Part shown: in pieces, positions 1 through 47,450 of the stretch
Layout of the letters: each line of letters starts with the position of its first letter
Numbering within the stretch: the stretch's first letter is position 1
NCBI GenBank assembly: GCA_021790935.1
Contig: JAJYFL010000005.1
Location: forward strand, 1 to 64,000
Reading direction: 5' to 3'
Source: a bacterium
GTDB lineage: Bacteria > Vulcanimicrobiota > Vulcanimicrobiia > Vulcanimicrobiales > Vulcanimicrobiaceae
DNA length: 64,000 nucleotides
The notes under the pieces: generated by a model
Databases searched by the model: none
What the model saw: only the letters and a program-made list of their open reading frames with translations
Told to the model about the DNA's origin: nothing
Program-made: the position numbers and the translations under genes

Positions 1-821
1 GCGCCGGCGTGATGGCGTATCCGCTCCAACTCCGCGAGCAGCGTTCGCAAGGCCAGCGCGCGAAGCGGGACTTGGATCCCGAGTGCGGCCTCCACCGCGT
101 TACAATAGCCCCAACCGTTGCCGAAGGCGCTGGTCCCGTTGCACCGTTCTACCAGCAGCAGAACGTCGTCCACGCTCCGGCCCTCGGCGAGTTTTTCGAT
201 TGCGCGATACTTGTAAAACAATCGCGGAACGGCGCGAACCACATCTTCGCCAACGGTTTCCAACAGAAAAAGTGCCGATTCCGCTCGCCCGGAGAAGACC
301 GGTCCCAGGGGCATAACGAAGGCGCCTTCCTCGTGGAGGACGCGGTGTGGCTTCCACTGCCGGTTCGTTTGGGCAACGCGTTCGGGCGACTGAGGCCGCA
401 TCAAACCGATTCCTTCAGCCCACTTGTCGTCGTGGAAGACGAAGTCACCCAATCGCGGGTGGTCCGTGAACGCGATCGAGAAAAGGTCTTCGATCTCGCG
501 CTCGTGCCGGTCGGCGCAGATGTAGACCGGCGTCAGCGAAGGCACCTCGCGCGCGGCGCGGTCGACGCATACGAGCAGATGCAACCACCCCGATCCGTCG
601 CCGGCATAGAAGCAATAGCGCAGATCGAGCGCGTCGTGCGTCTCCGAAGCGACGACGATTCCAAGTCTCCAGCCGTCTGCGTGCAGGCTCGCTGCAACCG
701 CACGCAGCAGATCGGCCGGGGGTCTGGCGAGCAGGATACCGGCCTGCGGTGAATCCGCAGGAGTAAGCGGCCATTCCCTCAGGGCCTCTCGAGCCTTGCC
801 GAATGAGTTCAACTGGCTCAT
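1..821 (-). CDS. Hyf/Ehr-like large subunit (NuoCD-type), 3' end outside window
   Basis: The first 273 residues are visible; the gene runs off the left edge. Residues about 1-140 resemble the NuoC-like domain (HEREIEDLF, then HPRLGDFVFHDDKW). From about 165 a NuoD/HycE-like domain begins (YKYRAIEKLAEGR, then ELERIRHHAGA). In NiFe hydrogenases such as HycE the motif after this is CGIC, two ligands of the NiFe site. Here residues 225-234 read ERCNGTSAFG, so CGIC is replaced by NGTS and only a shifted Cys227 remains. The start ATG at 819-821 overlaps the stop of the upstream HyfF-like gene (ATGA), so the two are translationally coupled. This matches Ehr (energy-converting hydrogenase-related) proteins rather than a working hydrogenase. 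The C-terminal ligand motif cannot be checked here. Confidence 0.85.
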   Translation of the reverse strand, partial: MSQLNSFGKAREALREWPLTPADSPQAGILLARPPADLLRAVAASLHADGWRLGIVVASETHDALDLRYCFYAGDGSGWLHLLVCVDRAAREVPSLTPVYICADRHEREIEDLFSIAFTDHPRLGDFVFHDDKWAEGIGLMRPQSPERVAQTNRQWKPHRVLHEEGAFVMPLGPVFSGRAESALFLLETVGEDVVRAVPRLFYKYRAIEKLAEGRSVDDVLLLVERCNGTSAFGNGWGYCNAVEAALGIQVPLRALALRTLLAELERIRHHAG

Positions 822-2269
822 CCTCCGAGCGCCGCAGCGGAGCGCATCAACAGCTCGATCAACGAGAGCGGCACCCAAACGCCCAGAGCGATGACCGGTA
901 AAGCGGCGATTCCCAGCGCGATCGCGCAAGGGACCGGGAGCGGGGGCCGTGCACGCCCGCTCTTGGCCGGCCGGCCGAAAATCATCTTCGTTACCTGGAA
1001 GAGCATGCCAAAGAAACCGGCCACGACGAACGCTGCCAGCAATCCGGTGACGAGGTAGTGATGCGACACGATTCCCGCGCGAAAGATTGCAAGTTCGCTC
1101 AGGAAAACGGCAAACGGCGGAGCGCCGGAGATCGCAAGTGCGCCCACGAGGAGCGCGGCCGCCGTAACCTTCGATCTTCCCAGCAAGCCGGTAACGTCCG
1201 CGATCGAACGCGTTCCGGTAACCAGCAGCGCGCTGCCCGCGGCATAAAAGCAGAACGACTTCGTGACCGCGTGCGTCATGATCTGCCAGACGGCCGACAC
1301 ATCGCCGAGCGGCGTCGCGAAGCTTGCCGCAACCAAGATTATCCCCATGTGTTCGACGGTGGAGAATGCGAAAAGCCGCTTGAAGTCGTGCGTCTGCATG
1401 ATCAGCAAGACGGCGGCGCCGACGGAGACTAGGCCGAGAACCGCAAACCACGCTTGCACGTGCACCGCCGGTACGGCTAAGAACACCCCTCGGAGACGGA
1501 GCAGCACGTAGAGCACCACGGTCGTTTCGACGCCGGAGAGCAAGGCGCAGACCGGGGCGGGCGCTTGGCTGTGCGCGTCCGGCAGCCACGTATGCAGCGG
1601 AACCAGTCCAATCTTCGCACCGTAGCCGACCAGGATCAGGGCGAACGCCACTTTGACGAGCGGAAGGGGCATAGAAGCCGCACCCGCCCGCAAGCCCGCC
1701 CACGTGAAGTCGATCGACCCGGTGAAATGGAGAGCCCAGAACAGTACCAGCACGCCAAGCACCGCAACCGTCGCGCCGAGGAGCGTCAGCACCATGTACT
1801 TCCAGGCCGCCTCGAGCGCTTCGCGAGTCCCGGCGAAACTGACGAGCAGCACCGAAAGCAGCGTCGTCAGTTCTACGGCGATCCATACCAATCCGAACTC
1901 CACGATGAACGGAATGCTCAGCATCGAGAAGGCGAACAAATTAAAGTTGGCATAATACAGCCGCGTGCGCTGGGACCCGTACTCCGGCCCAATGTAACCT
2001 GCGGAGAACACCGCCGCGGTCGCGGAGACGAATGTGATAAGCAAGAGCAGGAGCACGGAGAGCGCATCCACCTGCACCCAATTAGAAACCAGGACGAGCG
2101 TCCCGGCCGAGCGTACCGCCGCCATCACGACTACGCTCAGTCCGAACGCGAGCGCCGAGCACGCAATCGTCAGATATGCTGCGATCCGCTCGCTTCGCGG
2201 CAACGCCAGGGCCAGCGCGCCGAAGAGCGGTAGCGCGGGAACGAGCCAAGCGACGGCGTGCGCGTTCAA
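818..2269 (-). CDS. Hyf/Ehr-like membrane subunit HyfF (NuoN/ND2-type antiporter-like)
   Basis: A 483-residue polytopic membrane protein of the NuoL/M/N (Mrp antiporter-like) family. The TM5-type glutamate is present in WIAVELTTLLSV. The TM7-type lysine is present in GYGAKIGLVPLHTWLPDAHS, the hallmark of proton-translocating subunits, and FAFSTVEHMGII is also conserved. The length suits HyfF/HycC-type subunits without the long C-terminal lateral helix. Both ends overlap neighbouring genes by 4 bases (ATGA), so it sits in a tight operon between the HyfE- and HyfG-like genes. It should form part of the proton- or cation-pumping arm in the cytoplasmic membrane. Confidence 0.88.
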   Translation of the reverse strand: MNAHAVAWLVPALPLFGALALALPRSERIAAYLTIACSALAFGLSVVVMAAVRSAGTLVLVSNWVQVDALSVLLLLLITFVSATAAVFSAGYIGPEYGSQRTRLYYANFNLFAFSMLSIPFIVEFGLVWIAVELTTLLSVLLVSFAGTREALEAAWKYMVLTLLGATVAVLGVLVLFWALHFTGSIDFTWAGLRAGAASMPLPLVKVAFALILVGYGAKIGLVPLHTWLPDAHSQAPAPVCALLSGVETTVVLYVLLRLRGVFLAVPAVHVQAWFAVLGLVSVGAAVLLIMQTHDFKRLFAFSTVEHMGIILVAASFATPLGDVSAVWQIMTHAVTKSFCFYAAGSALLVTGTRSIADVTGLLGRSKVTAAALLVGALAISGAPPFAVFLSELAIFRAGIVSHHYLVTGLLAAFVVAGFFGMLFQVTKMIFGRPAKSGRARPPLPVPCAIALGIAALPVIALGVWVPLSLIELLMRSAAALGG

Positions 2270-2931
2270 GCAAGCTCCCGGAGGGCTGCTAGGCTCCCGG
2301 CCTCCGTCGAACCCGTTTCGCGGTACACGGCACGAGCCAGTATGGCAACGATGAACGCCAGCAGCGGCACGTCAAAGGCGATCGCAAGTTCGGCGATCAG
2401 GGGGAAATTTGGCGCGATGGCGATCCCGACCAAGAACGCGCCATTCTCCATGCCGAGTATGGCGAGGATTTGCGGAACGGCTTCGCGCCGGACGGCAAGC
2501 TGCAGCAGCGCGATCAGCAAGCCGGCTATGCCGAGCGAGACGTTGCCCGGGGAGAGGCTGTGGGCTGCCGCGTTGAGCGGCATGCCGACGGCATAGCCGA
2601 CCAGCAACAGCGCGAACGCGCTCAGCAGGGCTGCGGGCACGCCGACCGATTGCGACAGCTCCCTCCGCGCGTACACCTGAGCGGGAACCAAGCTGCGAAG
2701 AATCCATGGAATCAGCACGGCTTTGCTGGCGATCGTGACGCAGCCGAGTGCGAAGAGGTGCCACGACCATGGAGCGCCGCCAAGTAAGAAAGCGGACGCG
2801 GAGAGCAGCAGCGATTGCATCACGAAGATCTGCAGGCAGGCGCCGATCTGCCGCACGACGACCATGGCGATCGCCGTGAGGATGAAGAGACCAAGAACCA
2901 ACGCATTCAGGTGATAAAGCCATGCGGTCAT
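2266..2931 (-). CDS. Hyf/Ehr-like membrane subunit HyfE (NuoK-related)
   Basis: A 221-residue hydrophobic protein with about six to seven membrane spans. It resembles HyfE, whose C-terminal part is related to NuoK. The segment ILAILGMENGAFLVGIAI carries the glutamate in a helix typical of the NuoK-like part. It overlaps both neighbours by 4 bases (ATGA), confirming the order HyfC-HyfE-HyfF-HyfG. The paralogue at 40415-41086 is almost the same length (223 residues) and has the matching segment FLTIENGLFFGTVTL. It probably belongs to the proton path next to the HyfF-like subunit. Confidence 0.8.
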   Translation of the reverse strand: MTAWLYHLNALVLGLFILTAIAMVVVRQIGACLQIFVMQSLLLSASAFLLGGAPWSWHLFALGCVTIASKAVLIPWILRSLVPAQVYARRELSQSVGVPAALLSAFALLLVGYAVGMPLNAAAHSLSPGNVSLGIAGLLIALLQLAVRREAVPQILAILGMENGAFLVGIAIAPNFPLIAELAIAFDVPLLAFIVAILARAVYRETGSTEAGSLAALRELA

Positions 2932-3878
2932 AGGCCGAGCAGCTCCGTCACCATCGCCGTGACCGCCACGGCGAATGCGGCGCCCACGAAGTCCGTAATC
3001 CTGAATAACCGCAATTTTGCAAACGACGACTCAACGACGACGATCAGCAGCACGAGGGCAAGGACCTTTAAGAACACCAGTGCCGTCGCGAGCAGCATCG
3101 CCGGGATCGTGCCGGTCGACGCCAAGCCCCACGGCGTGGTCAGCACGTTGAGAAAGATGATCGCCAAGACGGCGAATTTCATGTAGCCGCCCCATTTCAA
3201 GAGGGCGAGTGCCGGACCGGAGAACTCAAGCGCTTTGGATTCGTCTATCATGGCAAGTTCGAAGTGACCGCTCGGGTTGTCTACGGGGATCCGGCCGGTT
3301 TCCGCGAGTAGCACCATGAAAAACGCGATCAGCAGCAGGACGTGGGACGCGGTGAAGAAGTTCGAAAGCGGATGAACCCAATGCTGTTGTACGATGTACG
3401 GAATCGTCGAGTCCGCGATGAACGAAACGGTGAATAAGACGATGATGATAACGGGCTCGACCAGAAACCCTACCATGCGGGTGCGGCTGGCGCCCATCGG
3501 GCCGTAGGGATTTCCGCCGTCGATCGCCGCAAGCGTAAAGAAAAATCCAGACGCCGCAAGGATGAATCCGGCCGCCAGCATATCGCCGACGAAGGCAAAA
3601 AATAGCGGGAAGTCGGTCAAGACCGGTATCAGCAACGTAACGACGAGCGGAATCACGAAGACGACGTATGGCGTGAACCGGAATATCCACGTGCTCGATT
3701 CCGGCGTCACGGCGTCCTTGGCGAAAAGCTTGCGGAGATCGCGGTACGGTTGAAAGATGCCCGGCCCACGCTTGGATGCAACCAGCTCTTTGCACTTCTG
3801 CAAAATGCCGGCGAAGAGTGGCGAAAGCCCGAGGATGAACGCCAGCTGCCAGAGATTCAGCGCCGCAGCTTCGGCCAT
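2928..3878 (-). CDS. Hyf/Ehr-like membrane subunit HyfC (NuoH-type)
   Basis: A 316-residue NuoH/HyfC-family membrane subunit that anchors the peripheral arm. Family signatures are SKRGPGIFQPYRDLRKLF near residue 35 and the loop ETGRIPVDNPSGHFELAMID. That loop follows the HycD/HyfC pattern rather than the NuoH pattern. It is the first gene of the minus-strand operon (HyfC-HyfE-HyfF-HyfG) and has about 430 bases of upstream space holding inverted repeats. The acidic loop thought to link quinone or redox chemistry to pumping is intact here, unlike the paralogue at 39459-40415. Confidence 0.88.
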   Translation of the reverse strand: MAEAAALNLWQLAFILGLSPLFAGILQKCKELVASKRGPGIFQPYRDLRKLFAKDAVTPESSTWIFRFTPYVVFVIPLVVTLLIPVLTDFPLFFAFVGDMLAAGFILAASGFFFTLAAIDGGNPYGPMGASRTRMVGFLVEPVIIIVLFTVSFIADSTIPYIVQQHWVHPLSNFFTASHVLLLIAFFMVLLAETGRIPVDNPSGHFELAMIDESKALEFSGPALALLKWGGYMKFAVLAIIFLNVLTTPWGLASTGTIPAMLLATALVFLKVLALVLLIVVVESSFAKLRLFRITDFVGAAFAVAVTAMVTELLGL

Positions 3879-3901: not shown

Positions 3902-3932
3902 GCTCCTACCAGCAACGGTGCCAAGTAGGAGC
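3902..3932. promoter_or_regulatory. inverted repeat upstream of the HyfC-like gene
   Basis: GCTCCTAC at 3902-3909 and its exact reverse complement GTAGGAGC at 3925-3932, separated by 15 bases, lie 24-54 bases upstream of the HyfC-like start. The same arm sequence recurs at 4150-4170. It could be an operator for a dimeric regulator or an RNA hairpin. No regulator can be assigned. Confidence 0.45.
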
Positions 3933-4149
3933 TATCATGCCGCTACGGGCCTATAGCGAGCTCCATCGCTAAACCACGACCTGCGTGCGCCTAGTATAGC
4001 GAACGCGCCTCGTGCACGCAAGTCCGGCCAAGTGCCGGACTGATACGACGCTAACCGCACTCGCAGGCACGGCCCCCAGGGCCGGAGAAGTTCGCGACTC
4101 CGTAAGACGGCGATGGAGCTCGCCGGAAACGCCGCGCGGCGGCTGATGG

Positions 4150-4170
4150 CTCCTACGTAATAGGTAGGAG
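4150..4170. promoter_or_regulatory. second copy of the CTCCTAC/GTAGGAG inverted repeat
   Basis: CTCCTAC (4150-4156), 7-base spacer, GTAGGAG (4164-4170). The arm is shared with the repeat at 3902-3932, about 245 bases away, which suggests one factor binding both sites in the divergent region between the HyfC-like operon and uspA. Confidence 0.4.
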
Positions 4171-4308: not shown

Positions 4309-4737
4309 ATGTTTTCACACATCCTGGTCGCCTGGGACGGCTCGGCAAGCGCTGGTCGCGCGTTCGACTACGCCGTAGAGATTGCGCGCCGGTTTCAGGC
4401 ACGCGTGCAACTTGTATCCGTAGCCCGCATAGGCGAACATTCCGAAACCGATGCGGAGCGCCAATCCTCCTTGGACGAAGCAAGGCGCTTTTACGAACAG
4501 CGCAGCGCTCCACTTATAGAGAGTGCGCGCCGCCAATCTATCACCGTCGAAATGTTGATCGTCGAAGGCGCCCACCCCGCCGAGGCTATTATCGACACGG
4601 CTCATAGGGTCGGAGCCGATCTCGTCCTCGTCGGCCGGCGAGGTCTCTCGGGCGTTACTCGTTTTCTCATCGGAAGCATCTCCGACCGGGTCGCGCGTTA
4701 TGCGCCGTGCCCCGTATTGATCATCAATGATCCGTGA
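4309..4737 (+). CDS. uspA: universal stress protein, UspA family
   Basis: A 142-residue single-domain Usp protein. It starts with the typical beta strand FSHILVAWDGSASA. Near the C terminus is the ATP-binding pattern G-2x-G-9x-G-S (GRRGLSGVTRFLIGSIS), followed by a final strand CPVLIIN. This places it in the ATP-binding, UspFG-like group. Such proteins are cytoplasmic and help cells survive starvation or oxidative stress; the target is unknown. GGTGA lies upstream of the ATG as a weak ribosome site. It is divergent from the HyfC-like operon and shares an upstream region with a repeated inverted repeat, so co-regulation is possible. Confidence 0.9.
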   Translation: MFSHILVAWDGSASAGRAFDYAVEIARRFQARVQLVSVARIGEHSETDAERQSSLDEARRFYEQRSAPLIESARRQSITVEMLIVEGAHPAEAIIDTAHRVGADLVLVGRRGLSGVTRFLIGSISDRVARYAPCPVLIINDP

Positions 4738-4864: not shown

Positions 4865-6046
4865 TTGAGACCCTCGCTCGCGCGCTCGCACCCGTTCCGC
4901 TTCGTGTTCATCATGAGCATCGTTAGCCTATTCGCCGACATGACGTACGAAGGCGCGCGTAGCGTGTCGGGGCCGTTTCTGGCATCGCTGGGCGCAACCG
5001 GTTTGGTTGTGGGGGTCGTCGCCGGCTTCGGGGAGCTCGCCGGATTCGGCCTGCGCTACTTCAGCGGCACGCTCGCGGATCGGACGGGCCGCTACTGGGT
5101 CGCGGCGTTTACCGGCTACGTTATCAACATGTTGAGCGTTCCTGCGCTCGCGCTCGCTCGCGGCTGGCCGGCCGCGGCCGCATTGATCGTCACCGAGCGT
5201 ATCGGACGCGGCGTTCGGAAGCCGGTCGCCGATGCCATGGTTTCTTACGCGGGTTCTCAGCTTGGCCGGGGCTGGGTCTTCGGTTTCCGACAAGCCATGG
5301 ATCAGACGGGTGCGACCATCGGGCCGCTGTTGATCGCACTCGTACTGTACCTGCACGGCGGATTCGGCCGCGCTTTTGCCATACTGATCGTACCGGCTCT
5401 ACTCTCGCTGCTGGCGTTGACGGTAGCGCAGCGGCAATTCCCAACACCGCGCGACCTGGAGAGACCGCCGGAAAGAGCGCCCGTGAGCCAGCAGCGGGCG
5501 TTTTGGATTTACGTTGCGGCAGGCTCGTGCCTGGCAGCGGGCTTCGCCGACTTTGCGCTCGTGTCGTATCACTTGAGCAAGAGCCACGTTCTACCCAATC
5601 ATGTGATACCGGTGCTCTACGCATGCGCGATGCTCGTAGCCGCAGTCTGTGCTCCGGTATGCGGCCGCGCCTACGATCGATGGGGAATCGGCGTCGTCGC
5701 GGCAACTTTCGGATTCGCGGCGCTCTTCGCACCGTTGGTATTCTTGGGATCCTCTTGGGCCGCGATTACCGGCGTTTTACTGTGGGGACTTGGAATGGGC
5801 GCGCAGGATGCCCTACTGCCCTCGATCATTGCGCGTCTTTCGCCGCCGGAACGGCGGGCAGGCGCCCTTGGGACTTTCGACGGCGTCTACGGCATCGCGT
5901 GGTTCGCGGGCAGCGCGACGATGGGGGCTCTGTACGACAAGAGCATCTTGGCACTCGTTATCTTTTCCCTAGCGCTGCAAATTATCGTTGGCGTGCCGCT
6001 GCTCTTCCTGGCCGCAAGCCGCGAGACCGCCGAGCGGCCTGCCTGA
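4865..6046 (+). CDS. MFS transporter
   Basis: A 393-residue major facilitator with about 12 membrane helices. The motif SLFADMTYEGARSVSGPFL in helix 1 marks a subfamily of uncharacterised MFS proteins. The loop 2-3 motif region reads GTLADRTGRYW, matching the general MFS motif A. The substrate is unknown. The TTG start at 4865 gives a short basic N terminus before helix 1; an ATG at about 4913 would cut into helix 1 and is less likely. A 17-base palindrome upstream may be its operator. Confidence 0.82.
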   Translation: MRPSLARSHPFRFVFIMSIVSLFADMTYEGARSVSGPFLASLGATGLVVGVVAGFGELAGFGLRYFSGTLADRTGRYWVAAFTGYVINMLSVPALALARGWPAAAALIVTERIGRGVRKPVADAMVSYAGSQLGRGWVFGFRQAMDQTGATIGPLLIALVLYLHGGFGRAFAILIVPALLSLLALTVAQRQFPTPRDLERPPERAPVSQQRAFWIYVAAGSCLAAGFADFALVSYHLSKSHVLPNHVIPVLYACAMLVAAVCAPVCGRAYDRWGIGVVAATFGFAALFAPLVFLGSSWAAITGVLLWGLGMGAQDALLPSIIARLSPPERRAGALGTFDGVYGIAWFAGSATMGALYDKSILALVIFSLALQIIVGVPLLFLAASRETAERPA

Positions 6047-39200: not shown

Positions 39201-39386
39201 GCAACCGGCGCCGAGCCAGGTTCGTCATCGAGCCTTCCTGCCCTCTCGCTACGACGGGCCGGCCCGAAATCGGCGCGACCGCCGGAGCAGGCCAGGCAGT
39301 CCGGCGTTGCGAACGTGAGAGTTCGTAGGCGGAGGAGTCCGCCGGCGAGTTTTCGCATCGCAAACTGCCGAATAGGCCAATGACTC

Positions 39387-39409
39387 CTGACGTTACGAAT
39401 GTACGTCAG
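39387..39409. promoter_or_regulatory. inverted repeat upstream of second Hyf/Ehr-like operon
   Basis: CTGACGT (39387-39393) and ACGTCAG (39403-39409) are exact inverse copies with a 9-base spacer, about 50 bases before the first gene. This is a good candidate operator. No regulator gene is adjacent. Confidence 0.5.
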
Positions 39410-39458
39410 TGTCGGAGAATGGTTTGAGTAAGCGGTCCGAAACGATGGAGACGCCGGA

Positions 39459-40415
39459 GTGACGCTAGCGCCTATTTTTGTACAAGTGGCGCAGGTGGCA
39501 TCGCTGCTGTTTTTGTCGCCGCTTCTCGCCGGCAGCATCGCGCGCATCGAAGCGATCGTTCAGGGGCGGCGCGGGCCCTCGGTCTTTCAGCCGTATCGCG
39601 ACATCCTCAAATTTTTTCGCAAGCAGTCGCTCCTGCCGGGACCCTCCTCCTGGATCTTTCGCACGGCTCCCTACGTTGCGTGCGGCGCGTACGCAACCGT
39701 GGCTACGCTTATCCCGGTGCTCACGACCTACCCCTTGCCGGGAGCGACGTACGGCGATATTCTCGGCGGCGCGTTCGTCCTCGCGCTGGCGGGGTTCGTA
39801 ACGGCGCTCGCCGCCTTGGACGCGGGCTCCCAGTATACCGGAATCGGCAGCAGCCGCGCGGTGATGGTCGGCATCCTCGTGGAGCCGACCCTCATCTTCG
39901 TCTTCTTCTCGGTGGCATTTCTCACGGGCACCGATCTGCCTTACGCCATGAACGCGGCCCTGCGCCACTCGGCGGCAAACGTACTGCGCCCCGCCCACCT
40001 TCTGGCGACCGCAGCCTTCTTCATGATGATGCTCGTCGATACCGGGCGGATTCCGATCGAGAGCTCGTCGGCAACGACCGAATTCGGGATGATCGACGAC
40101 GCGCGTTTCTTCGAGCACTCGGGCCCCGCCGTCGCGCTCTTCAGGTGGGCCGGCTCGATGAAGCAGTTCCTGCTCTACACGATCTTCATCAACGTCTTGT
40201 TGTTGCCGCTCGGGCTGTCGTCCAACGGATCGCTGCCGTCGGTACTCTTTGCCGTCGTAACGCTCTTTGCCAAGATGCTGGCGGTCGGGCTGGTCGTCGC
40301 GACGATCGAAACGACCTTCGCGAAGCTCCGGCTCTACAAGATACCGGATTTCATCGCAACGGGTCTGCTCGTCGCGATTCTCGCGGTATTCGCCTACGTC
40401 GTGGGGGTCGGATAG
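39459..40415 (+). CDS. Hyf/Ehr-like membrane subunit HyfC (NuoH-type), second cluster
   Basis: A 318-residue NuoH/HyfC homologue, paralogue of 2928-3878. RRGPSVFQPYRDILKFF is conserved. The acidic loop reads DTGRIPIESSSATTEFGMID, whereas the paralogue has ETGRIPVDNPSGHFELAMID; several invariant positions (DNP, H, L) are changed here. The GTG start at 39459 has GGAG 8 bases upstream. It is the first gene of a six-gene operon whose members touch or overlap each other. It should join the peripheral arm to the membrane arm. Confidence 0.87.
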   Translation: MTLAPIFVQVAQVASLLFLSPLLAGSIARIEAIVQGRRGPSVFQPYRDILKFFRKQSLLPGPSSWIFRTAPYVACGAYATVATLIPVLTTYPLPGATYGDILGGAFVLALAGFVTALAALDAGSQYTGIGSSRAVMVGILVEPTLIFVFFSVAFLTGTDLPYAMNAALRHSAANVLRPAHLLATAAFFMMMLVDTGRIPIESSSATTEFGMIDDARFFEHSGPAVALFRWAGSMKQFLLYTIFINVLLLPLGLSSNGSLPSVLFAVVTLFAKMLAVGLVVATIETTFAKLRLYKIPDFIATGLLVAILAVFAYVVGVG

Positions 40416-41086
40416 TGATCGCACATCAGCTCACCGTCCCGGAGGCCCTGGCGGGGACCGTCGCCGTACTGCTCATGCTCGTGCAACTCGCCTTGTTCCG
40501 CTCGGTCGTGATCTCGGAACTCATCCGCCTGTACGCCGTACAGTCGTTCCTGGTGGCCGCCATCGGCTTCGGCGTCGGGGTTACCGAAGGCAGCTGGGAT
40601 TTGATCGCCTTGGCGCTGCTGACGATCCTGTTCAAAGTAGTTGCGCTTCCAATCTACATGCAGTCGCTGGTGCGAACGATATCCACGCGCGTCGAATTAC
40701 CGGCGCGAATCAACATCACGCTCTCGCTGCTCGTGGCCGCCGCGCTGATCGGCTTCGCGATTCTCACGGCAATGCAGCTCCCGCTCCATCACGGCGCCTT
40801 CTTGCCGCAGGCCGACTTGGCAACGACCTTGGCCATCGTCTTCGTCGGCTTCCTTCTCGCCATTCTTCGGCCAAACGCCCTCGCCCAAGTCATCGCCTTT
40901 CTCACGATTGAGAACGGCCTTTTCTTCGGCACCGTGACGCTTGCGCCCGGGCTGCCGTTCGTCATCGGCGTGCTCCTGCTGATCGACGTGCTCGTAGCGG
41001 TCGTCGTCTTTGCCGTATTGGTGCGGATCCTGGTCGGGCAAGAGGCCTCCGCATCTACCACGTTCTTCGAGAGGCTGCGCGGATGA
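40415..41086 (+). CDS. Hyf/Ehr-like membrane subunit HyfE, second cluster
   Basis: A 223-residue membrane protein, paralogue of 2266-2931, with about six to seven helices. A helix containing FLTIENGLFFGTVTL has the NuoK-type glutamate. The GTG start at 40415 shares one base with the preceding TAG (TAGTG), and the end overlaps the HyfF-like gene by 4 bases. Predicted proton-path subunit. Confidence 0.82.
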   Translation: MIAHQLTVPEALAGTVAVLLMLVQLALFRSVVISELIRLYAVQSFLVAAIGFGVGVTEGSWDLIALALLTILFKVVALPIYMQSLVRTISTRVELPARINITLSLLVAAALIGFAILTAMQLPLHHGAFLPQADLATTLAIVFVGFLLAILRPNALAQVIAFLTIENGLFFGTVTLAPGLPFVIGVLLLIDVLVAVVVFAVLVRILVGQEASASTTFFERLRG

Positions 41087-42531
41087 ACGGGCTCGCCGTC
41101 GCCATCGCCGCCGTGCCCGCTGCGCTTGCGGTCGCAGTGCTCTTCGTACCTTCGCGCGTGGGGCGCATCGCGACCGCGATCGGCGGCCTCGTGACGGCGG
41201 CGTGCATCGCGGCGCTCGCTCTCCAAACAGCGGACGGCGCGCCCGGCGCTCCGGACGCCCTCTCCGCACTCTTCCTGCTGCCCGTCGCGATCGTCTACGG
41301 GACCGTCGGGCTCTACACCACTTGGTACGTGCGCGTGGAGAGCATCGGCAGCGGCGGCGACGAGATCTACAGGCGCGAGTTTCTCGCGCTGACCAATGCG
41401 TTCGCCGCCGCGGAAGCGATCGTTCCGCTGGTGACCAACATGGCGGGCGTATGGGTTGCGCTGGAAGTTACCACCATCCTCGCGGCGCTGCTGGTGCGGC
41501 TGCACGGCACCGCGGCCGCGCTGGAAGCGGCCTGGAAGTACATCCTGATCGCATCGTGCGGCCTCGCGATCGGACTCGTGGGCGTCATCGTGCTCTACGC
41601 CTCGGGCACCGGGGTTCTCGGCCAGCACTACGAGCCCGTATGGAGCGCCTATATGGCGGTTGCCTCACGGTTGAACCCCGACGGCGTGCGCCTGGCCTTC
41701 GTGCTCGCTCTAGTTGGTTTCGGTACGAAGATGGGACTCGCGCCGATGCACACGTGGCTTCCCGACGCTCACGGCGCGGGTCCTACGCCGACGAGCGCGA
41801 TGCTCTCCGGCGTGCTGCTATCGGATGCGCTCTACGTCATCGTTCGCTTTGCGTCGATCGCCAACGCCGCAACCGGCACGACGATGACGCATCGCCTATT
41901 CTTCGTCGTCGGCCTGCTTTCGCTGTTCGTCGGAGCGTTTTTCTTGCTGCGTCAGCGCGATATAAAGCGAATGCTCGCGTATTCGAGCATCGAGCACATG
42001 GGCATCGTCGCGTGCGGCTTGGCCTTCGGCGCGCGCATTGCGGTGACCGGGGCCTTCCTCCATGCGATAAACCACGCAGCGACCAAGTCGCTCGCGTTCT
42101 TGAGCGCCGGCCGTCTCTCCCATCGTTTCAACACGCGCGAGATCGCGGGCATACGAGGCGCGGTAGCGGCGCTTCCGATATCGGGAACCATGTTCGCGCT
42201 CGCCGGCCTCGCGCTGGCAGGTATGCCGCCCTTCGGCACGTTTCGAAGCGAACTCATGATCCTCGCCGGCGGTTTCGGCGGGCGCGAGTGGTGGATCGCT
42301 ATCGTGGCGCTCCTCCTGCTCGCAATCGCGTTCGCGGGAATCGTGCGATGGGTCACGAGCGTCTGCGGCGGCGAGCCGCCCGCGGAGGTTCGGCGCGGCG
42401 AGCGCGACCCCGGCGCGATCGCCGCGATGCTGCTCGGCTTCGCCGTCGTGCTCGGCCTCGGGCTCTTCGTACCGCCGCCGCTCGGGCGCCTGCTCGAAGG
42501 CGCGTTTCGCATCCTGGAAGGCCGCTCGTGA
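41083..42531 (+). CDS. Hyf/Ehr-like membrane subunit HyfF (NuoN-type), second cluster
   Basis: A 482-residue NuoL/M/N-family subunit, paralogue of 818-2269. The TM5-type Glu is in VWVALEVTTILAALLV, the TM7-type Lys in GFGTKMGLAPMHTWLPDAHG, and MLAYSSIEHMGIV is conserved. So the residues needed for proton or cation translocation are intact. It overlaps both neighbours by 4 bases. Confidence 0.88.
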   Translation: MNGLAVAIAAVPAALAVAVLFVPSRVGRIATAIGGLVTAACIAALALQTADGAPGAPDALSALFLLPVAIVYGTVGLYTTWYVRVESIGSGGDEIYRREFLALTNAFAAAEAIVPLVTNMAGVWVALEVTTILAALLVRLHGTAAALEAAWKYILIASCGLAIGLVGVIVLYASGTGVLGQHYEPVWSAYMAVASRLNPDGVRLAFVLALVGFGTKMGLAPMHTWLPDAHGAGPTPTSAMLSGVLLSDALYVIVRFASIANAATGTTMTHRLFFVVGLLSLFVGAFFLLRQRDIKRMLAYSSIEHMGIVACGLAFGARIAVTGAFLHAINHAATKSLAFLSAGRLSHRFNTREIAGIRGAVAALPISGTMFALAGLALAGMPPFGTFRSELMILAGGFGGREWWIAIVALLLLAIAFAGIVRWVTSVCGGEPPAEVRRGERDPGAIAAMLLGFAVVLGLGLFVPPPLGRLLEGAFRILEGRS

Positions 42532-43922
42532 GCCCCACAGAGATGCGCGGTGCCCGCGAGGTCGCGCAGCGGGTTCTATCGCGGGTGCGCGACGGCGCAC
42601 GCCTCGCATGGATCTTCGGCGATCGCGTAGGAGACCGCACGGTGCTGCGCTACGTCGTCAGCGATGAAGGGGGGCTGGAAGAACATCCCGGCAACGTGCT
42701 CGGGCCCGTTCCATCGCTCGCGGCGGAGCTCCCGGCCGCGCTTTGGCACGAGTGCGAGGCGCGCGACCGCTTCGGCATACTATTCGAAGATCTCCCCGAA
42801 TCCCGCCCGCTCGTCGACGTTCGACCGGCCGAGGAACTTCGACGCGCGGAGTCGCCGGAAGTCTCCACGGTACTCTACGGGCCGATCCGATCGGGCATCG
42901 TCGAGTCGGCGCGCTGGATCGTGGAGACCGCGGGCGAGGATTTCATCAGCGTCCATCCTTCGATGTTCTTCAAACGCCGCGAGCTCGAGCATCGCTTCAC
43001 CGGCGTGCCGCTCGATCTCGCGGCGCACGTCGCCGAGCATGCGAGCGGAGCGACGGCGTCCAGCCATGCGGCCGCATTCTCTAAGGCGGCCGAAGCGGCG
43101 CTGCGGCTGGAGGTACCCGAGCGCGCCCGCGCTACGCGGGCGGTTCTCGTGGAGTTCGAACGCATCCACCAACACCTCGACTCGCTGGCGAAACTCGCCG
43201 ACGACGGCTCGCTTTCGGTTGGATCCTCGCAGACGTTTGCAGCCAAGGAACGTATCCACCGCCTATTAGCCGAGGCAACCGGAAACCGCTTCGCGCGCGG
43301 AGTCATCACGGTCGGAGGGACGCGCTTCGACGCGATGTCGCGCCTTGCGGACGTCTGCGGCGCGCAGCTCGACCGGCTCGAAGCGGAGGTGCTCGCCGTG
43401 CTCGAAGCGCTCTTCTCCACCCAGTCGCTGCTCGACCGCCTTATCGGCACCGGAAGGCTCGCGCGCGAAGTCGTCATCGCTTACGGCGCCGTGGGGCCCG
43501 TCGCGCGCGGGAGCGGCGTATCGTGCGACGCCCGGCTACGCGACGGTTATCTGTATACGCCGATGGCGGGCGAGGAATCTCTCGAGAGCCAGGGCGACGC
43601 GGTCTCGCGAGCGCTGGTGCGCCGTGCGGAGATCGTGCGGTCGTTCCGATCGATTCGCAACGCTCTCGACGGCGCTTTCGCCGGCGAGCATCTCGCACCC
43701 GCGCGCATCGAGGATGGATGCGGCATCGCGCGCGTCGAGTCTCCGCAAGGCGAACTCCTCTACTTCGTGCGGTTCGACGGCGGCATCGCCCGAGTGGCTC
43801 TACGGTCGGCATCGTACGCCAATTGGCCGCTCTTCGTGCCATCGCTGCCCGGTAATATCTTTACGGATTTCTCCTTCATCGAGCATTCATTCGGGTTGTC
43901 GCAAGCGGAGGTCGACCGTTGA
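42528..43922 (+). CDS. Hyf/Ehr-like large subunit (NuoCD-type) without NiFe-site cysteines, second cluster
   Basis: A 464-residue NuoC-NuoD fusion as in HycE/HyfG. The NuoC part ends with ECEARDRFGILFEDLPESRP. The NuoD part has KRRELEHRFTGV and PERARATRAVLVEFERIHQH. Where HycE has the first NiFe motif CGIC, this protein reads AEHASGATASSH (169-180), with no cysteine. The second motif (DPCYSCTDR in HycE, after NWP and GN/D segments) is replaced by HSFGLSQAEVDR at the very C terminus. So all four NiFe ligands are missing. In complex I NuoD also lacks them and binds quinone there; whether this protein does is unknown. Starts at GTG 42528 overlapping the previous stop. Confidence 0.88.
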   Translation: MSPTEMRGAREVAQRVLSRVRDGARLAWIFGDRVGDRTVLRYVVSDEGGLEEHPGNVLGPVPSLAAELPAALWHECEARDRFGILFEDLPESRPLVDVRPAEELRRAESPEVSTVLYGPIRSGIVESARWIVETAGEDFISVHPSMFFKRRELEHRFTGVPLDLAAHVAEHASGATASSHAAAFSKAAEAALRLEVPERARATRAVLVEFERIHQHLDSLAKLADDGSLSVGSSQTFAAKERIHRLLAEATGNRFARGVITVGGTRFDAMSRLADVCGAQLDRLEAEVLAVLEALFSTQSLLDRLIGTGRLAREVVIAYGAVGPVARGSGVSCDARLRDGYLYTPMAGEESLESQGDAVSRALVRRAEIVRSFRSIRNALDGAFAGEHLAPARIEDGCGIARVESPQGELLYFVRFDGGIARVALRSASYANWPLFVPSLPGNIFTDFSFIEHSFGLSQAEVDR

Positions 43923-44635
43923 GCAATTGGATCCTATACGGCCTGCGCCGCGGCATCCTCACGACGCGCTACCCGCAGCGCTCCGGGGCGATGCCCGCCG
44001 GCTACCGCGGTGCCGTCACCGCGTTGAACGCACCGCTCGAGGAGCAGCGCGCGGGGATAGCTGCGTGCCTATCGGGCGCCCTGCAGGAAGGTTCGCCGGC
44101 GGCTCGGGTCGATGCGCTGCGCTGCTACCAATGCGGCGAATGCGTGCGGCGCGCGCCTACTGCGTTTGCGATCTCCCCTGCCTTCGAGGTCGCACGGCTA
44201 CGGCGGCGCGCGGCGTCGTTTGGGCGCTCGGTGCACGTGCGGCACGTCGACGCCGGGAGCGACGGTTCCGAGGAGCAAGAACTGCAGGCAATCTTCAATC
44301 CGTTCTACGATGCGAACCGCTTGGGGATCTTCTTGACGGCGACGCCGCGTCATGCCGACGTCTTGATCGTAACGGGGGTGGTGACCCATCCGATGGTGGA
44401 TCCGCTACGCCGCGCGTACGATGCGATGCCGCACCCGAAGAGCGTGATCGCGCTCGGGACCTCGGCCTGCTCCGGCGGCATCTTCGCCGATAGCCCGGAC
44501 GTTGCGGGGCCGGTCGATACAATCGTGCCCGTGGACGTCTATATTCCCGGCATGCCGCCCACGCCGCTATCGATCCTTCACGGTCTCGCGGTCGCGCTCG
44601 GCAGAGCGGTGCCGGCCGGCGGGGCGATACCGTGA
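43919..44635 (+). CDS. ferredoxin-like/NuoB-like fusion (HyfH-HyfI) with lost iron-sulfur ligands, second cluster
   Basis: A 238-residue fusion. Residues 1-100 resemble HyfH/NuoI: YGLRRGILTTRYP at the start, then only one partial cluster motif, RCYQCGECVRRAP (Cys 69, 72, 75; the fourth Cys is Ala79). The other 4Fe-4S site is gone. Residues 100-230 are the NuoB/HycG-like small subunit: PRHADVLIVTGVVTHPM and IVPVDVYIPGMPPTPLSIL. Against HycG the proximal-cluster cysteines become A112, D115, E118, S182 (GTSACSGG for GACGNSGG) and M212 (PGMPP for PGCPP). So no standard Fe-S cluster can be bound. TTG start at 43919 with GGAG 8 bases upstream. Confidence 0.88.
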   Translation: MSNWILYGLRRGILTTRYPQRSGAMPAGYRGAVTALNAPLEEQRAGIAACLSGALQEGSPAARVDALRCYQCGECVRRAPTAFAISPAFEVARLRRRAASFGRSVHVRHVDAGSDGSEEQELQAIFNPFYDANRLGIFLTATPRHADVLIVTGVVTHPMVDPLRRAYDAMPHPKSVIALGTSACSGGIFADSPDVAGPVDTIVPVDVYIPGMPPTPLSILHGLAVALGRAVPAGGAIP

Positions 44636-46644
44636 CCGCGCTGCAACTCGTCCTGTCGGCGCTGGGCGCGGCGCTGCTGGGGTGCGCGCTCTCGATCGCC
44701 GTGCCGGGCCGCTACGGGCGTACGCTGGGCTTTTTGTCGTTGCTCGCAGCCGGGGCGCTCGGATGTGCGGCGGCGGTCGCGGGCCTGCGCGCCCCCGTAC
44801 CGGAGGTTGCCGGTTACCCGGCGATCCACGTGCTGCTGCGCATCGACCCGATCTCGGCGTTCTTCGTCGGCATCATCGCAGCGACGGCGCTGCTGGCCGG
44901 CATCTACGGATTGGGCTCGCGCGGCGCGGACGAGCGGCGCACCGGCCGGACCGCCGCATCCGCAGCCTGCGCGATCGCGCTGGCGTCGCTGCTCGTATGC
45001 GTCGCCGACGACGTGCTGCTCTTTCTCTTCGCCTGGGAGCTGATCGCGCTCGGCTTCTATTGGACGATCGTCTACGCCGGCACGCACGAAGAGGCGGAGC
45101 GCTCCGGGTACGTCACGCTCGTCGTAACGCACGTGGCGGGTGCCTGCTTGATCGCCGCGCTGCTCATCCTCGCGCATCGCGGTGGCGGATACTCGCTGGA
45201 GAGCGCGCTTGCCGGCGCCGCCACGCTCTCGGCTCCCGCACGCGGCGTCATCTTCGTGCTGCTGTTGATCGGCTTCGGCGCGAAGTTCGGCATGCTTCCC
45301 ATGCAAGTATGGCTTCCGTACGGTTATTCGGCGGCGCCGGCCTCCGTTGCGGCGCTGATGGCCGGTGGAGCGCTCAACGCCGGCTTCTACGGCCTGGCGC
45401 GTTTTGTCATCGGACTGCCGGGCGGCGTCCCCATCTGGTGGGCGATCGTGGCCCTTGCGCTCGGCGCGCTCGGCGCCTTCTTCGGTATCGCGTGGGCGAC
45501 GGCTCAACGCGACGTGCGGCGGCTGGCGGCCTACTCCAGCGTCGAAAACGGCGGCATCATCCTGGCGGCGTTCGGCGTCGCACTCGCGGGGCGCGCCATC
45601 CACCTCGATCTGCTCGTCGGTCTCGGCCTGGCGGCCGCCTTCATGCAGATCGCCGCTCACGCACTTGCTAAGACGACGCTCTTCCTCGGTTGCAGCACGA
45701 TCGCCGACCGCTGCGGCACGCTTTCGTTCGAATCGCTCGGCGGCTTGGCGAAATCGATGCCCGTGACGACGGCAGCGACGCTCGTCGCGGCGCTCTCGCT
45801 CGCCGCCCTGCCGCCGATGGCGGGCTTCGCAGGCGAGTGGCTGATTCTCGAGTCGCTCATGCAGGCGTTTCGTACCGGCAGCGTCGCTCTCGAACTTTCG
45901 TTCGCGCTGTGCGGTGCCACCATCGGCGTGGCCGCCGGCATCGCCGTGGTCGCATTCGTCAAACTGGTGGGCATCGGTCTTCTCGGCAGCGCGCGATCTC
46001 CGCAAGCGCGTGCCGCAACCGAAACGCCGTCCGCGTGGAAACGCTTGGCGCTCGTACTGGGCGCGCTCGCGGTCCTCTCGGCGGGCATCTTCGCTCGCTC
46101 CCTCTTGACGCTGGCGGCACCCGCCATCGACGGCCTCTCGCACGCGAACGCGGTTGCGGGAATAGCCGGAACGGCACCCCTGCTCCAGCCGGCGTTCCCC
46201 GGCTTCTCCTCGGCGTCTCCGCCCGCGCTGGCGCTGACAATCGGCGGCTTCGCGTTGCTCTTCTGGCTGCTCGCGCGTGCGATTCCGCGGCCGCGCGCTC
46301 GCAGCGCCGAGGTATGGACCTCGGGCGAATCGTACCGCCCATGGACGCAATACACGGGTACCGGATTTGCGAACCCCTCACGCGTTATTTTGGACGCCGG
46401 CATGCGCACGACGCGCGAGATCGCGGTCGAAGGCCCCCCCCACGGCGAGCGAAGCACCCGCTATTCGAGCGCGATTCGTCCGTTCTTCGATCTGCGGTTC
46501 TACCGGCGCGTCGCCTCGGGCTTTCTGCGAGTCGCCGATATCGTTCGGAAGACGCAATCGGGTGCCATCGCCGCGTACCTCTCGTATATTCTGGTCTTCA
46601 CCATTCTTCTGCTTCTCTTGTTCCCGTCGATTCGCAAATGGTAG
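44632..46644 (+). CDS. Hyf/Ehr-like membrane subunit HyfB (NuoL-type), second cluster
   Basis: A 670-residue NuoL/HyfB-type antiporter-like subunit. TM5-type Glu in LFLFAWELIALGFYW; TM7-type Lys in GFGAKFGMLPMQVWLPYGYS, where the usual PxAH is PYGY; AAYSSVENGGIILAAFG is conserved. The C-terminal part (after a loop with TSGESYRPWTQYTGTG) ends in a helix, as in HyfB. It completes the operon HyfC-E-F-G-H/I-B. GTG start overlaps the previous stop. Confidence 0.88.
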   Translation: MTALQLVLSALGAALLGCALSIAVPGRYGRTLGFLSLLAAGALGCAAAVAGLRAPVPEVAGYPAIHVLLRIDPISAFFVGIIAATALLAGIYGLGSRGADERRTGRTAASAACAIALASLLVCVADDVLLFLFAWELIALGFYWTIVYAGTHEEAERSGYVTLVVTHVAGACLIAALLILAHRGGGYSLESALAGAATLSAPARGVIFVLLLIGFGAKFGMLPMQVWLPYGYSAAPASVAALMAGGALNAGFYGLARFVIGLPGGVPIWWAIVALALGALGAFFGIAWATAQRDVRRLAAYSSVENGGIILAAFGVALAGRAIHLDLLVGLGLAAAFMQIAAHALAKTTLFLGCSTIADRCGTLSFESLGGLAKSMPVTTAATLVAALSLAALPPMAGFAGEWLILESLMQAFRTGSVALELSFALCGATIGVAAGIAVVAFVKLVGIGLLGSARSPQARAATETPSAWKRLALVLGALAVLSAGIFARSLLTLAAPAIDGLSHANAVAGIAGTAPLLQPAFPGFSSASPPALALTIGGFALLFWLLARAIPRPRARSAEVWTSGESYRPWTQYTGTGFANPSRVILDAGMRTTREIAVEGPPHGERSTRYSSAIRPFFDLRFYRRVASGFLRVADIVRKTQSGAIAAYLSYILVFTILLLLLFPSIRKW

Positions 46645-46928: not shown

Positions 46929-47450
46929 ATGCTCATCGAGTTTCGCGGCAGAGTGCCGAAGGTCGACCCAACCGCGTTCGTCGCGCCGACGGCCGTGCTG
47001 ATCGGCGACGTAGAGGTCGGCCCGGAGTCGAGCATCTGGTTCGGGGCCGTGGTCCGGGGCGACAACGGCCCGATTCGCATCGGCGCGCGAACGTCGGTTC
47101 AGGACAACTGCGTGCTGCACGTCAGCCGAAACTGCACGACGGTCCTGGGCGACGACGTGACGGTCGGGCACTGCGCGGTGATGGAAGACTGCACGATCGA
47201 AAACTACGCGTTGATCGGCAGCAACGCGGTGATACTCAACGGCGCGATCGTCGGCGCCTCCTCGCTGGTCGCGGCCGGAAGCGTCGTCGGCGAAAACGCG
47301 CGCATCCCCGAGCGCGTCGTCGTTGCCGGCGCGCCGGCAACGGTCAAGAAGCCGCTGGGAGGCGAGGCCGCGAAGTGGGTCGCCACCGGCGCCGACGAGT
47401 ACCGCGAACTCACTCGCAGCTACCGCGCCGAGAAGATCGGCGGAACGTAA
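46929..47450 (+). CDS. gamma-carbonic anhydrase family protein (YrdA-like)
   Basis: A 173-residue left-handed beta-helix protein: DPTAFVAPTAVLIGDVEVGP and SSIWFGAVVRGDNGPIRIG match YrdA/CaiE-type proteins. Of the three histidines that bind metal in gamma-CAs, two are present (His64 in VLHV and His81 in VGHC), but the third, normally five residues after the second, is Glu86 (MEDC instead of LHGC). So metal binding or activity may differ. Trimer is expected. It is on the plus strand, convergent with dnaB (6-base gap). Confidence 0.85.
   Translation: MLIEFRGRVPKVDPTAFVAPTAVLIGDVEVGPESSIWFGAVVRGDNGPIRIGARTSVQDNCVLHVSRNCTTVLGDDVTVGHCAVMEDCTIENYALIGSNAVILNGAIVGASSLVAAGSVVGENARIPERVVVAGAPATVKKPLGGEAAKWVATGADEYRELTRSYRAEKIGGT

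Follow-up and report, generated by a model that had tools for sequence, protein, structure and literature searches.

What might a relative of the group-4 hydrogenases and complex I do once its active site and terminal cluster have been lost? This question is raised by a six-gene operon at positions 39,459–46,644 of a 64 kb stretch (hereafter, the window) at the start of contig C20, which comes from a 2.65 Mb metagenome-assembled genome of Eremiobacterota type that is 98.8% complete. A sequence-only reading of this DNA had proposed a probably redox-silent, complex-I-like machine that could be a new branch of the energy-converting hydrogenase-related (Ehr) complexes (Marreiros 2013, as cited in PMC6349859, PMC6728331 and PMC4378227). 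That reading missed a fluoride-riboswitch-like leader and a second Ehr operon (3878 to 3, minus strand). We conclude that the operon is probably part of fluoride/acid defence, and is not a hydrogenase.

Metal sites and ion-translocation residues

The six genes are encoded on the plus strand in the order HyfC-E-F-G-H/I-B, with head-to-tail overlaps of 1 or 4 bp. Pfam and NCBIfam profiles agree with the coupled gene set that had been read from the sequence. The membrane arm comprises a NuoH-like HyfC/HycD subunit (39,459–40,415; PF00146, E=2.5e-31; 7z0s_D, E=1.2e-40), a HyfE/HycP-like subunit (40,415–41,086; NF008556, E=6.6e-16) and the antiporter-like subunits HyfF (41,083–42,531; PF00361, E=7.9e-52; NF005044, E=7e-111) and HyfB, which has a C-terminal extension (44,632–46,644; PF00361, E=1.6e-46; NF005086, E=1e-125). 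The peripheral arm consists of a HyfG/HycE-like large subunit with a 30 kDa remnant and a 49 kDa domain (42,528–43,922; PF00346, PF00329), and a fused HyfH/HyfI-like small subunit in which a ferredoxin half precedes a NuoB/HycG domain (43,919–44,635; PF01058, E=2.1e-23). The closest solved relatives, found by sequence, are the E. coli formate hydrogenlyase (7Z0S) and the membrane-bound hydrogenase and sulfane reductase (MBH/MBS) of P. furiosus.

Judging from alignments with these relatives, the peripheral arm has neither a [NiFe] site nor cluster N2, a hallmark of complex I and the group-4 hydrogenases. In the large subunit, aligned to 7z0s_E and 6cfw_L, CGIC is replaced by SGAT, and the C-terminal CxxC by SQAE within LSQAEVDR. 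In the small subunit, all four cysteines of N2 (the proximal cluster), located by alignment with HycG and MbhJ, are replaced, by D115, E118, S182 and M212. An AlphaFold model of this subunit (predicted local distance difference test score, 82.5) has HycG (7z0s_G) as its best match in the PDB. The quinone site is also changed. Arg121 takes the place of the GPxH His where the quinone/active-site loop begins, and the position of the quinone-site Tyr is not Tyr in the N2-less branch. Glu126 in the beta1-beta2 loop of the large subunit is kept, and aligns with HycE E193, a presumed proton donor of formate hydrogenlyase (PMC9474812).

Homologues of the large and small subunits of group-4 hydrogenases thus share one operon with HyfC, HyfE, HyfF and HyfB, and the large subunit lacks the [NiFe] CxxC motifs (SGAT; LSQAE), as is typical of Ehr complexes. 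Complex I (Nuo) does not fit, since the N2 ligands, the quinone-site His and Tyr and the NADH module are all missing; no NuoEFG genes were found in the operon. An authentic formate hydrogenlyase or hydrogenase would agree with the six-gene set, which resembles that of formate hydrogenlyase, and with the label that the literature gives to riboswitch-linked, or crcB-linked, genes (PMC2864571, PMC11139923). However, the clade described below lacks both CxxC motifs of the [NiFe] site and every N2 ligand, and with these the proximal cluster that a group-4 [NiFe] hydrogenase would need. Its genes therefore cannot be hydrogenases, and we give this explanation practically no weight.

The sequence-only reading had allowed the peripheral arm no metal site beyond three cysteines, which was incorrect. 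The small subunit keeps one complete predicted ferredoxin-type [4Fe-4S] site, made up of C50 (AACLSGA) and C69, C72 and C75 (CYQCGEC). In an alignment with the paralogue, C50 matches the Cys-Pro of CPTGAI, and CYQCGEC matches CIHCMRC. All four cysteines occur in 85/85 of the full-length fused homologues. Because C50 is invariant, a 3Fe site formed by three cysteines was rejected. In NuoI, cluster N6b is bound by the CxxCxxC of the second motif and the Cys-Pro of the first.

Other residues are invariant only in the N2-less branch, by comparison with N2-containing relatives. These are R108, H109, S114, D115, E119 and D131 in the small subunit, and R121, K149, K240, R257, R365, R426, E409 and E452 in the large subunit. 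Together with the kept loop Glu, they suggest that an ionic site has been rebuilt and not merely eroded, and we infer from their positions in the sequence that they are placed around the old N2 pocket. Such a pocket might also belong to a complex that serves chiefly as a regulated channel or sensor, in which the [4Fe-4S] cluster and ionic pocket report redox state, O2, pH or fluoride and thereby gate the membrane arm. A cluster that is kept without an electron exit would make sense in a sensor, as would the branch-specific charges (R108, H109, D115 and E119 in the small subunit; R121, K149, R257 and R365 in the large). Six subunits, two of them antiporter-like, would nonetheless be a costly sensor, and no signalling partner was seen. 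We consider this function improbable.

The membrane arm retains the full set of ion-translocation residues. The Glu of transmembrane helix 5 and the Lys of transmembrane helix 7, whose presence had been recognized in the sequence-only reading, are E128 and K216 in HyfF and E136 and K218 in HyfB. Each is 100% conserved among 72 N2-less sequences of the respective subunit. As expected of antiporter-like subunits, both also have a later His/Lys pair and Glu (H331, K335 and E390 in HyfF; H343, K347 and E402 in HyfB). HyfC retains the acidic residues E142, E208 and E219, as well as K235, and K74, R152, E166 and D191 of HyfE are invariant. Conservation among N2-less sequences is 99–100% for HyfF E390, HyfB E402, HyfC E142, E208 and E219, and HyfE K74 and E166.

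The loss of catalytic residues could instead mean that the operon is decaying, or is an assembly artefact. However, dN/dS (the ratio of nonsynonymous to synonymous substitution rates), computed against one relative from the genus, is low in all six genes, at 0.04–0.12 in the membrane subunits and 0.26–0.28 in the two arm subunits. Independent assemblies carry the operon with 93–98% protein identity, and it is kept in two other genomes of the window's genus. Gene order and residues are conserved across phyla, with the order C-E-F-G-I-B identical in Eremiobacterota, Actinobacteria and Binatota/Myxococcota, and no frameshifts or relaxed selection were seen in relatives. The operon is real and under purifying selection, and decay or artefact is hardly credible. 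A lack of conservation, which the sequence-only reading had named as a reason to abandon it, is thus not what we found.

The N2-less clade and its relatives

We compared 87 small subunits, and the N2-less state occurs in 78 of them. In these 78 sequences, the first N2 position is always Asp (78/78), the second is Glu (in a few, Asp or Cys), the third is Asp, Glu, Ser, Thr or Ala, and the fourth is Ser, Thr, Met or Ala. The commonest set is D-E-D-S (62 sequences). In a large-subunit tree from a quick IQ-TREE search, the N2-less rows group together in a single clade (43 rows; support of 97 in the Shimodaira-Hasegawa-like approximate likelihood ratio test, SH-aLRT), comprising Eremiobacterota (100) and Actinobacteria. 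On this tree, the N2-less state marks one ancient clade that spans both groups. This phylogeny, of one of the six subunits for which trees had been suggested as a check, supports a new branch of the Ehr complexes. Within the window's phylum, the N2-less form is found in 13/149 genomes, all from the window's family.

Some N2-less versions are borne on plasmids, in M. branderi (L175) and Allomeiothermus silvanus (L178). The latter, on plasmid pMESIL01 of this member of the Deinococcota, has the order B-C-E-F-G-I and no riboswitch match. A second, independent loss of N2, with S/S/H-type replacements, occurs in another family of the phylum (L151; G131, 1333–2019), where two complete ferredoxin motifs are retained. 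In-frame TGA codons had made selenocysteine a candidate in cultured actinobacterial small subunits, but we rejected it, since the TGA is in an ordinary stop region outside the gene.

The exceptions to the N2-less state are of three types. All four cysteines (CCCC) are present in the second Ehr operon of the source genome, L127. Three cysteines and Asn, Asp or Thr in place of the fourth are typical of Binatota/Myxococcota-type operons (e.g., L113, L115 and L097; also L117, L119 and L116), and this change of the fourth ligand possibly modifies the cluster. The third type is another complex-I-like operon of the source genome, on contig C19 (L010:778–7438), whose large subunit has the [NiFe]-type motifs CGSC and CYAC. 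N2 is present there, the small subunit is small and lacks a ferredoxin domain, and the operon is probably a true group-4 hydrogenase. A partial copy of its large subunit is located downstream, at L010:8764–9396. Binding of clusters by homologues, which had been named as a possible refutation of the sequence-only reading, is thus true of sister branches with N2 intact, but not of the N2-less branch.

The second Ehr operon of the source genome, the N2-containing paralogue, is on the minus strand of the window (3–3878), with HyfC at 2928–3878, HyfE at 2266–2931, HyfF at 818–2269 and the large subunit at approximately 3–821. It is cut at the contig start and resumes at the end of contig C11 (L009), and an identical overlap (FGNGWGYCNAVEAALG…) is present at both ends. 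The two Ehr operons of the window stand within about 35 kb of one another. In some relatives, an N2-less operon adjoins another Ehr operon (L043, 12–16.7 kb; L107, 12.4–16.8 kb; L064, L092 and L102), and in L107 this neighbor is shown to contain N2. A dynamin-family GTPase is encoded near the second Ehr operon of the window, and a dynamin-family gene is also located beside a Burkholderia Ehr operon (L177).

We clustered the genes neighboring the operon across the loci of relatives. No conserved gene for an added electron carrier was found beside the operon, although the sequence-only reading had suggested looking for such a subunit. A universal stress protein gene occurs 3′ of HyfB, usually directly, in 19 actinobacterial loci (e.g., L102, 15,661–16,176). 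A gamma-carbonic-anhydrase-like gene (46,929–47,450) starts 285 bp downstream of the operon in the window. Plant complex I and DAB2 made its product a candidate partner, but this was rejected since its synteny is confined to the genus.

Fluoride-riboswitch-like leaders

A leader resembling the fluoride riboswitch (RF01734) is located 62 bp before HyfC in the window (39,319–39,396, plus strand). Its Rfam score of 28.0 bits (E=1.4e-5 in 801 bp; E=1.1e-5 genome-wide) is below the gathering score of 34 bits, and the leaders of relatives reach 35–53 bits. A relative from the genus (L122) has a leader in the same place. In the loop that binds Mg-F, the window leader differs from the consensus, with GGAG for GAUG and CCAAUG for CUGAUG. 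Its pseudoknot segment can also pair downstream, in an alternative helix 44 nt from the start. Given these departures and the distance of this helix, the function of the window leader is the least certain of all the leaders. Between leader and HyfC (39,385–39,460), a possible open reading frame of 12 codons (TTG…TGA) overlaps the GTG start codon. Translational coupling by this reading frame is possible in the window's genus.

A sequence-only riboswitch model, trained on 14 such RNAs and run at E<=1 over 1.35 Mb, found a same-strand leader no more than 450 bp before HyfC, with a median distance of 48 bp, in at least 43 of the 63 loci that lack N2. This model misses or shortens many actinobacterial leaders. 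Given how much of the searched sequence falls in that upstream zone, chance alone would place about 1.5 of its 138 matches there. Matches above the Rfam cut-off (35–53 bits) lie directly upstream of HyfC in L046, L053, L054, L057, L067, L080, L095, L108, L112 and L126. Also above the cut-off are leaders of the CCC-type operons L097, L113, L115 and L117, and of the Burkholderia plasmid operon L177, which has N2 and two ferredoxin clusters. With Rfam in E-value mode, L071 scored 25 bits, and L078, L058 and L084 gave no match, yet the pattern of pseudoknot and alternative helix is present there. A pseudoknot with an alternative downstream helix can form in 50/62 N2-less leaders, as opposed to 17/1240 shuffled sequences. 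The alternative partner of the pseudoknot segment is mostly the purine-rich Shine-Dalgarno sequence just before the start codon, which predicts a translational ON switch.

As controls, we used 72 loci with nuo genes, other Ehr operons and 28 NuoB-only Ehr operons from Mycobacteriales and other actinobacteria, all 28 of which keep N2. None of the 72 has a full-length riboswitch match, although the leader of the operon's first gene falls outside the stretch examined for some of them. Fluoride-linked regulation of the N2-less clade, in both of its phyla, is thus well supported by sequence comparison.

Other leaders in the source genome have a conspicuous distribution. A weak fluoride-riboswitch-like leader precedes the second Ehr operon (3919–3979, minus strand; 24.5 bits, below gathering; E=1.5e-4 genome-wide). 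A canonical fluoride riboswitch (4100–4162, plus strand; 52.9 bits) precedes genes that Pfam assigns to Usp (4309–4737) and MFS_1 (4865–6046). Only five RF01734 matches were found genome-wide, and every one lies where the ends of C11 and C20 adjoin. The remaining two are upstream of a NUDIX gene (C11:264975) and of a metallophosphoesterase/NUDIX/HAD/MutS-like run (C11:256104). Since both of these contig ends carry the same piece of the second Ehr large subunit, the five matches point to one fluoride island. The riboswitch-led run (L210; C11:252500–264500) encodes a metallophosphoesterase, a NUDIX protein, a HAD phosphatase and two MutS-domain-V proteins. Plasmid Ehr operons of relatives adjoin genes for enolase, inorganic diphosphatase, CrcB, DUF190 and universal stress proteins, which also suggests a fluoride connection. 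CrcB is encoded 3–22 kb from the operon in 8/10 of the CrcB-bearing N2-less genomes, and 3–6 kb from it in five.

Proposed function and comparison with known systems

We propose, with confidence that is evenly balanced, that the operon encodes a fluoride-induced Ehr complex that acts as an Mrp-like proton/cation translocator, repairing pH and proton-motive force under hydrogen fluoride (HF) stress, and whose old active site probably no longer receives electrons. HF entering at low pH would acidify the cytoplasm and drain the proton-motive force, and fluoride would raise synthesis of the complex. The membrane arm could then restore pH or the membrane potential, on which CrcB-type fluoride export would depend. 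In support of this, Na+/H+ antiporters rank next after exporters among the classes linked to the riboswitch, and cells are acidified by HF (PMC11139923). The slower evolution of the membrane subunits, compared with the arm, also agrees with the proposal. The peripheral arm would no longer deliver electrons to a substrate site. Rebuilt from invariant Asp/Glu and Arg/Lys/His residues, what was once the N2 pocket may serve in ionic coupling or gating, and the [4Fe-4S] cluster that is left may be structural, or a redox or O2 gate.

The loss of N2 strengthens the earlier suggestion of ion translocation without redox chemistry, which we find plausible, although the strict retention of one [4Fe-4S] site does not sit easily with it. 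Spacing between clusters in formate hydrogenlyase is <14 A (PMC9474812). Once N2 is gone, the cluster that is kept probably lies too far from the former active site for electrons to pass in the ordinary way, and the complex would then probably perform redox-silent pumping or antiport. Moreover, N2 is intact, or almost intact, in sister Ehr complexes that are linked to the riboswitch (L177, L113, L115, L097 and L117). The fluoride link is thus common to complexes with a full wire (L177), with a doubtful N2 (the L113 group) and with none, suggesting that N2 is dispensable under fluoride.

The main rival explanation is a redox-driven pump with another electron path, in which electrons enter at the N6b-like [4Fe-4S] cluster and exit to a substrate, or through a non-FeS metal in the N2 pocket with its carboxylates or an unlinked carrier protein. 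The four ferredoxin-type cysteines that are never lost, the mostly conserved Asp/Glu/Asp at the old N2 positions (plausible metal ligands), and the two ferredoxin clusters and N2 of the fluoride-linked sister L177 all agree with such a path. However, about two cluster steps would separate the next cofactor from the old active site, more than the <14 A between clusters in formate hydrogenlyase. Moreover, the quinone-site His and Tyr are replaced, and neighbor clustering found no conserved carrier gene beside the operon. We regard this pump as possible, but doubtful.

Several points weigh against our proposed translocator. A pump needs an energy source, and without redox chemistry only an antiporter or channel is possible. 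The strict retention of the four cysteines argues that the cluster still matters, which leaves a redox role open. The departures in the window's own leader may mean that its fluoride response is altered or lost. Finally, no CrcB was found in the source genome, an absence that is likely but not proven at 98.8% completeness, and CLC-F was rejected, as the single CLC (on contig C9) lacks the GNNLI/GMGLI signature (PMC11139923). The version in which the complex serves CrcB is therefore not applicable as such to this genome. In a different and rather unlikely scenario, the old N2/active-site cavity would be a non-redox ligand or metal site, and its occupancy would gate or drive ion translocation. 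Fluoride chemistry or a different ion gradient would then power or control the complex in place of electrons. The site might, for example, hold a divalent metal bound by carboxylates, or be an F-/Mg-F site lined by the invariant Arg, Lys and His. The complex itself would then possibly move F-/H+ where there is no recognizable fluoride exporter, as in the source genome.

A widespread clade that has given up N2, but not its pump residues, offers a natural experiment on the extent to which coupling in complex I depends on electrons. The N2-less operon is carried by cultured Streptomyces, Actinacidiphila, Amycolatopsis and Conexibacter, and is thus directly testable.

Reports that the crcB motif precedes “formate hydrogen lyase” genes date back to 2010 (Weinberg 2010, PMC2864571), and a 2024 review still calls such riboswitch-linked genes formate-oxidising enzymes (PMC11139923). 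The genes of the 2010 report, an operon like that of formate hydrogenlyase with a crcB-motif leader, are very probably of the same kind as the window operon. They have been known by their label only, and are identified here as Ehr complexes, many without N2. In the open literature, we found no report of riboswitch-linked genes without a [NiFe] site or of an Ehr branch without N2; the subscription originals of 2012 and 2013 were outside this scope. Our results give these genes a concrete identity. In this clade they cannot produce H2, and it makes more sense to read them as ion translocators, in keeping with the acidification that HF causes.

Among known Ehr complexes, that of M. tuberculosis (Rv0082-Rv0087) is of the same six-subunit kind, also lacks the [NiFe] ligands, and its function was called unknown (PMC6728331). 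The NuoB-only Ehr complexes of Mycobacteriales that we examined, which exclude M. tuberculosis itself, keep the N2 cysteines (CNGC…GCPP), while all four are replaced in the window branch. An N2-less state common to M. tuberculosis-type Ehr complexes is therefore rejected. These complexes also had no fluoride leader in the stretches examined, and the window branch differs from them in its C-E-F-G-I-B order and its small subunit of fused ferredoxin and NuoB domains. In M. tuberculosis, the small subunit presumably comes first.

E. coli formate hydrogenlyase (HycBCDEFG; 7Z0S) includes the closest solved relatives of HyfC, HyfB and the large and small subunits. By comparison, the window complex has no [NiFe] site, proximal cluster or formate dehydrogenase, and has one instead of two ferredoxin-domain clusters. 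The membrane arm is homologous to those of complex I and Mrp antiporters, with the Glu and Lys residues intact, but the operon lacks the NADH module, N2 and the quinone-site His and Tyr. It does not encode an Mrp antiporter, but its product could work like one. The CO2 uptake system DAB2 (DabAB) has only two subunits, and its carbonic-anhydrase partner is not homologous to the cytoplasmic arm of the window complex. Nevertheless, DAB2 pairs a complex-I-like, proton-conducting subunit with a non-redox cytoplasmic partner, and is thus a precedent for the arrangement proposed here (PMC13144422).

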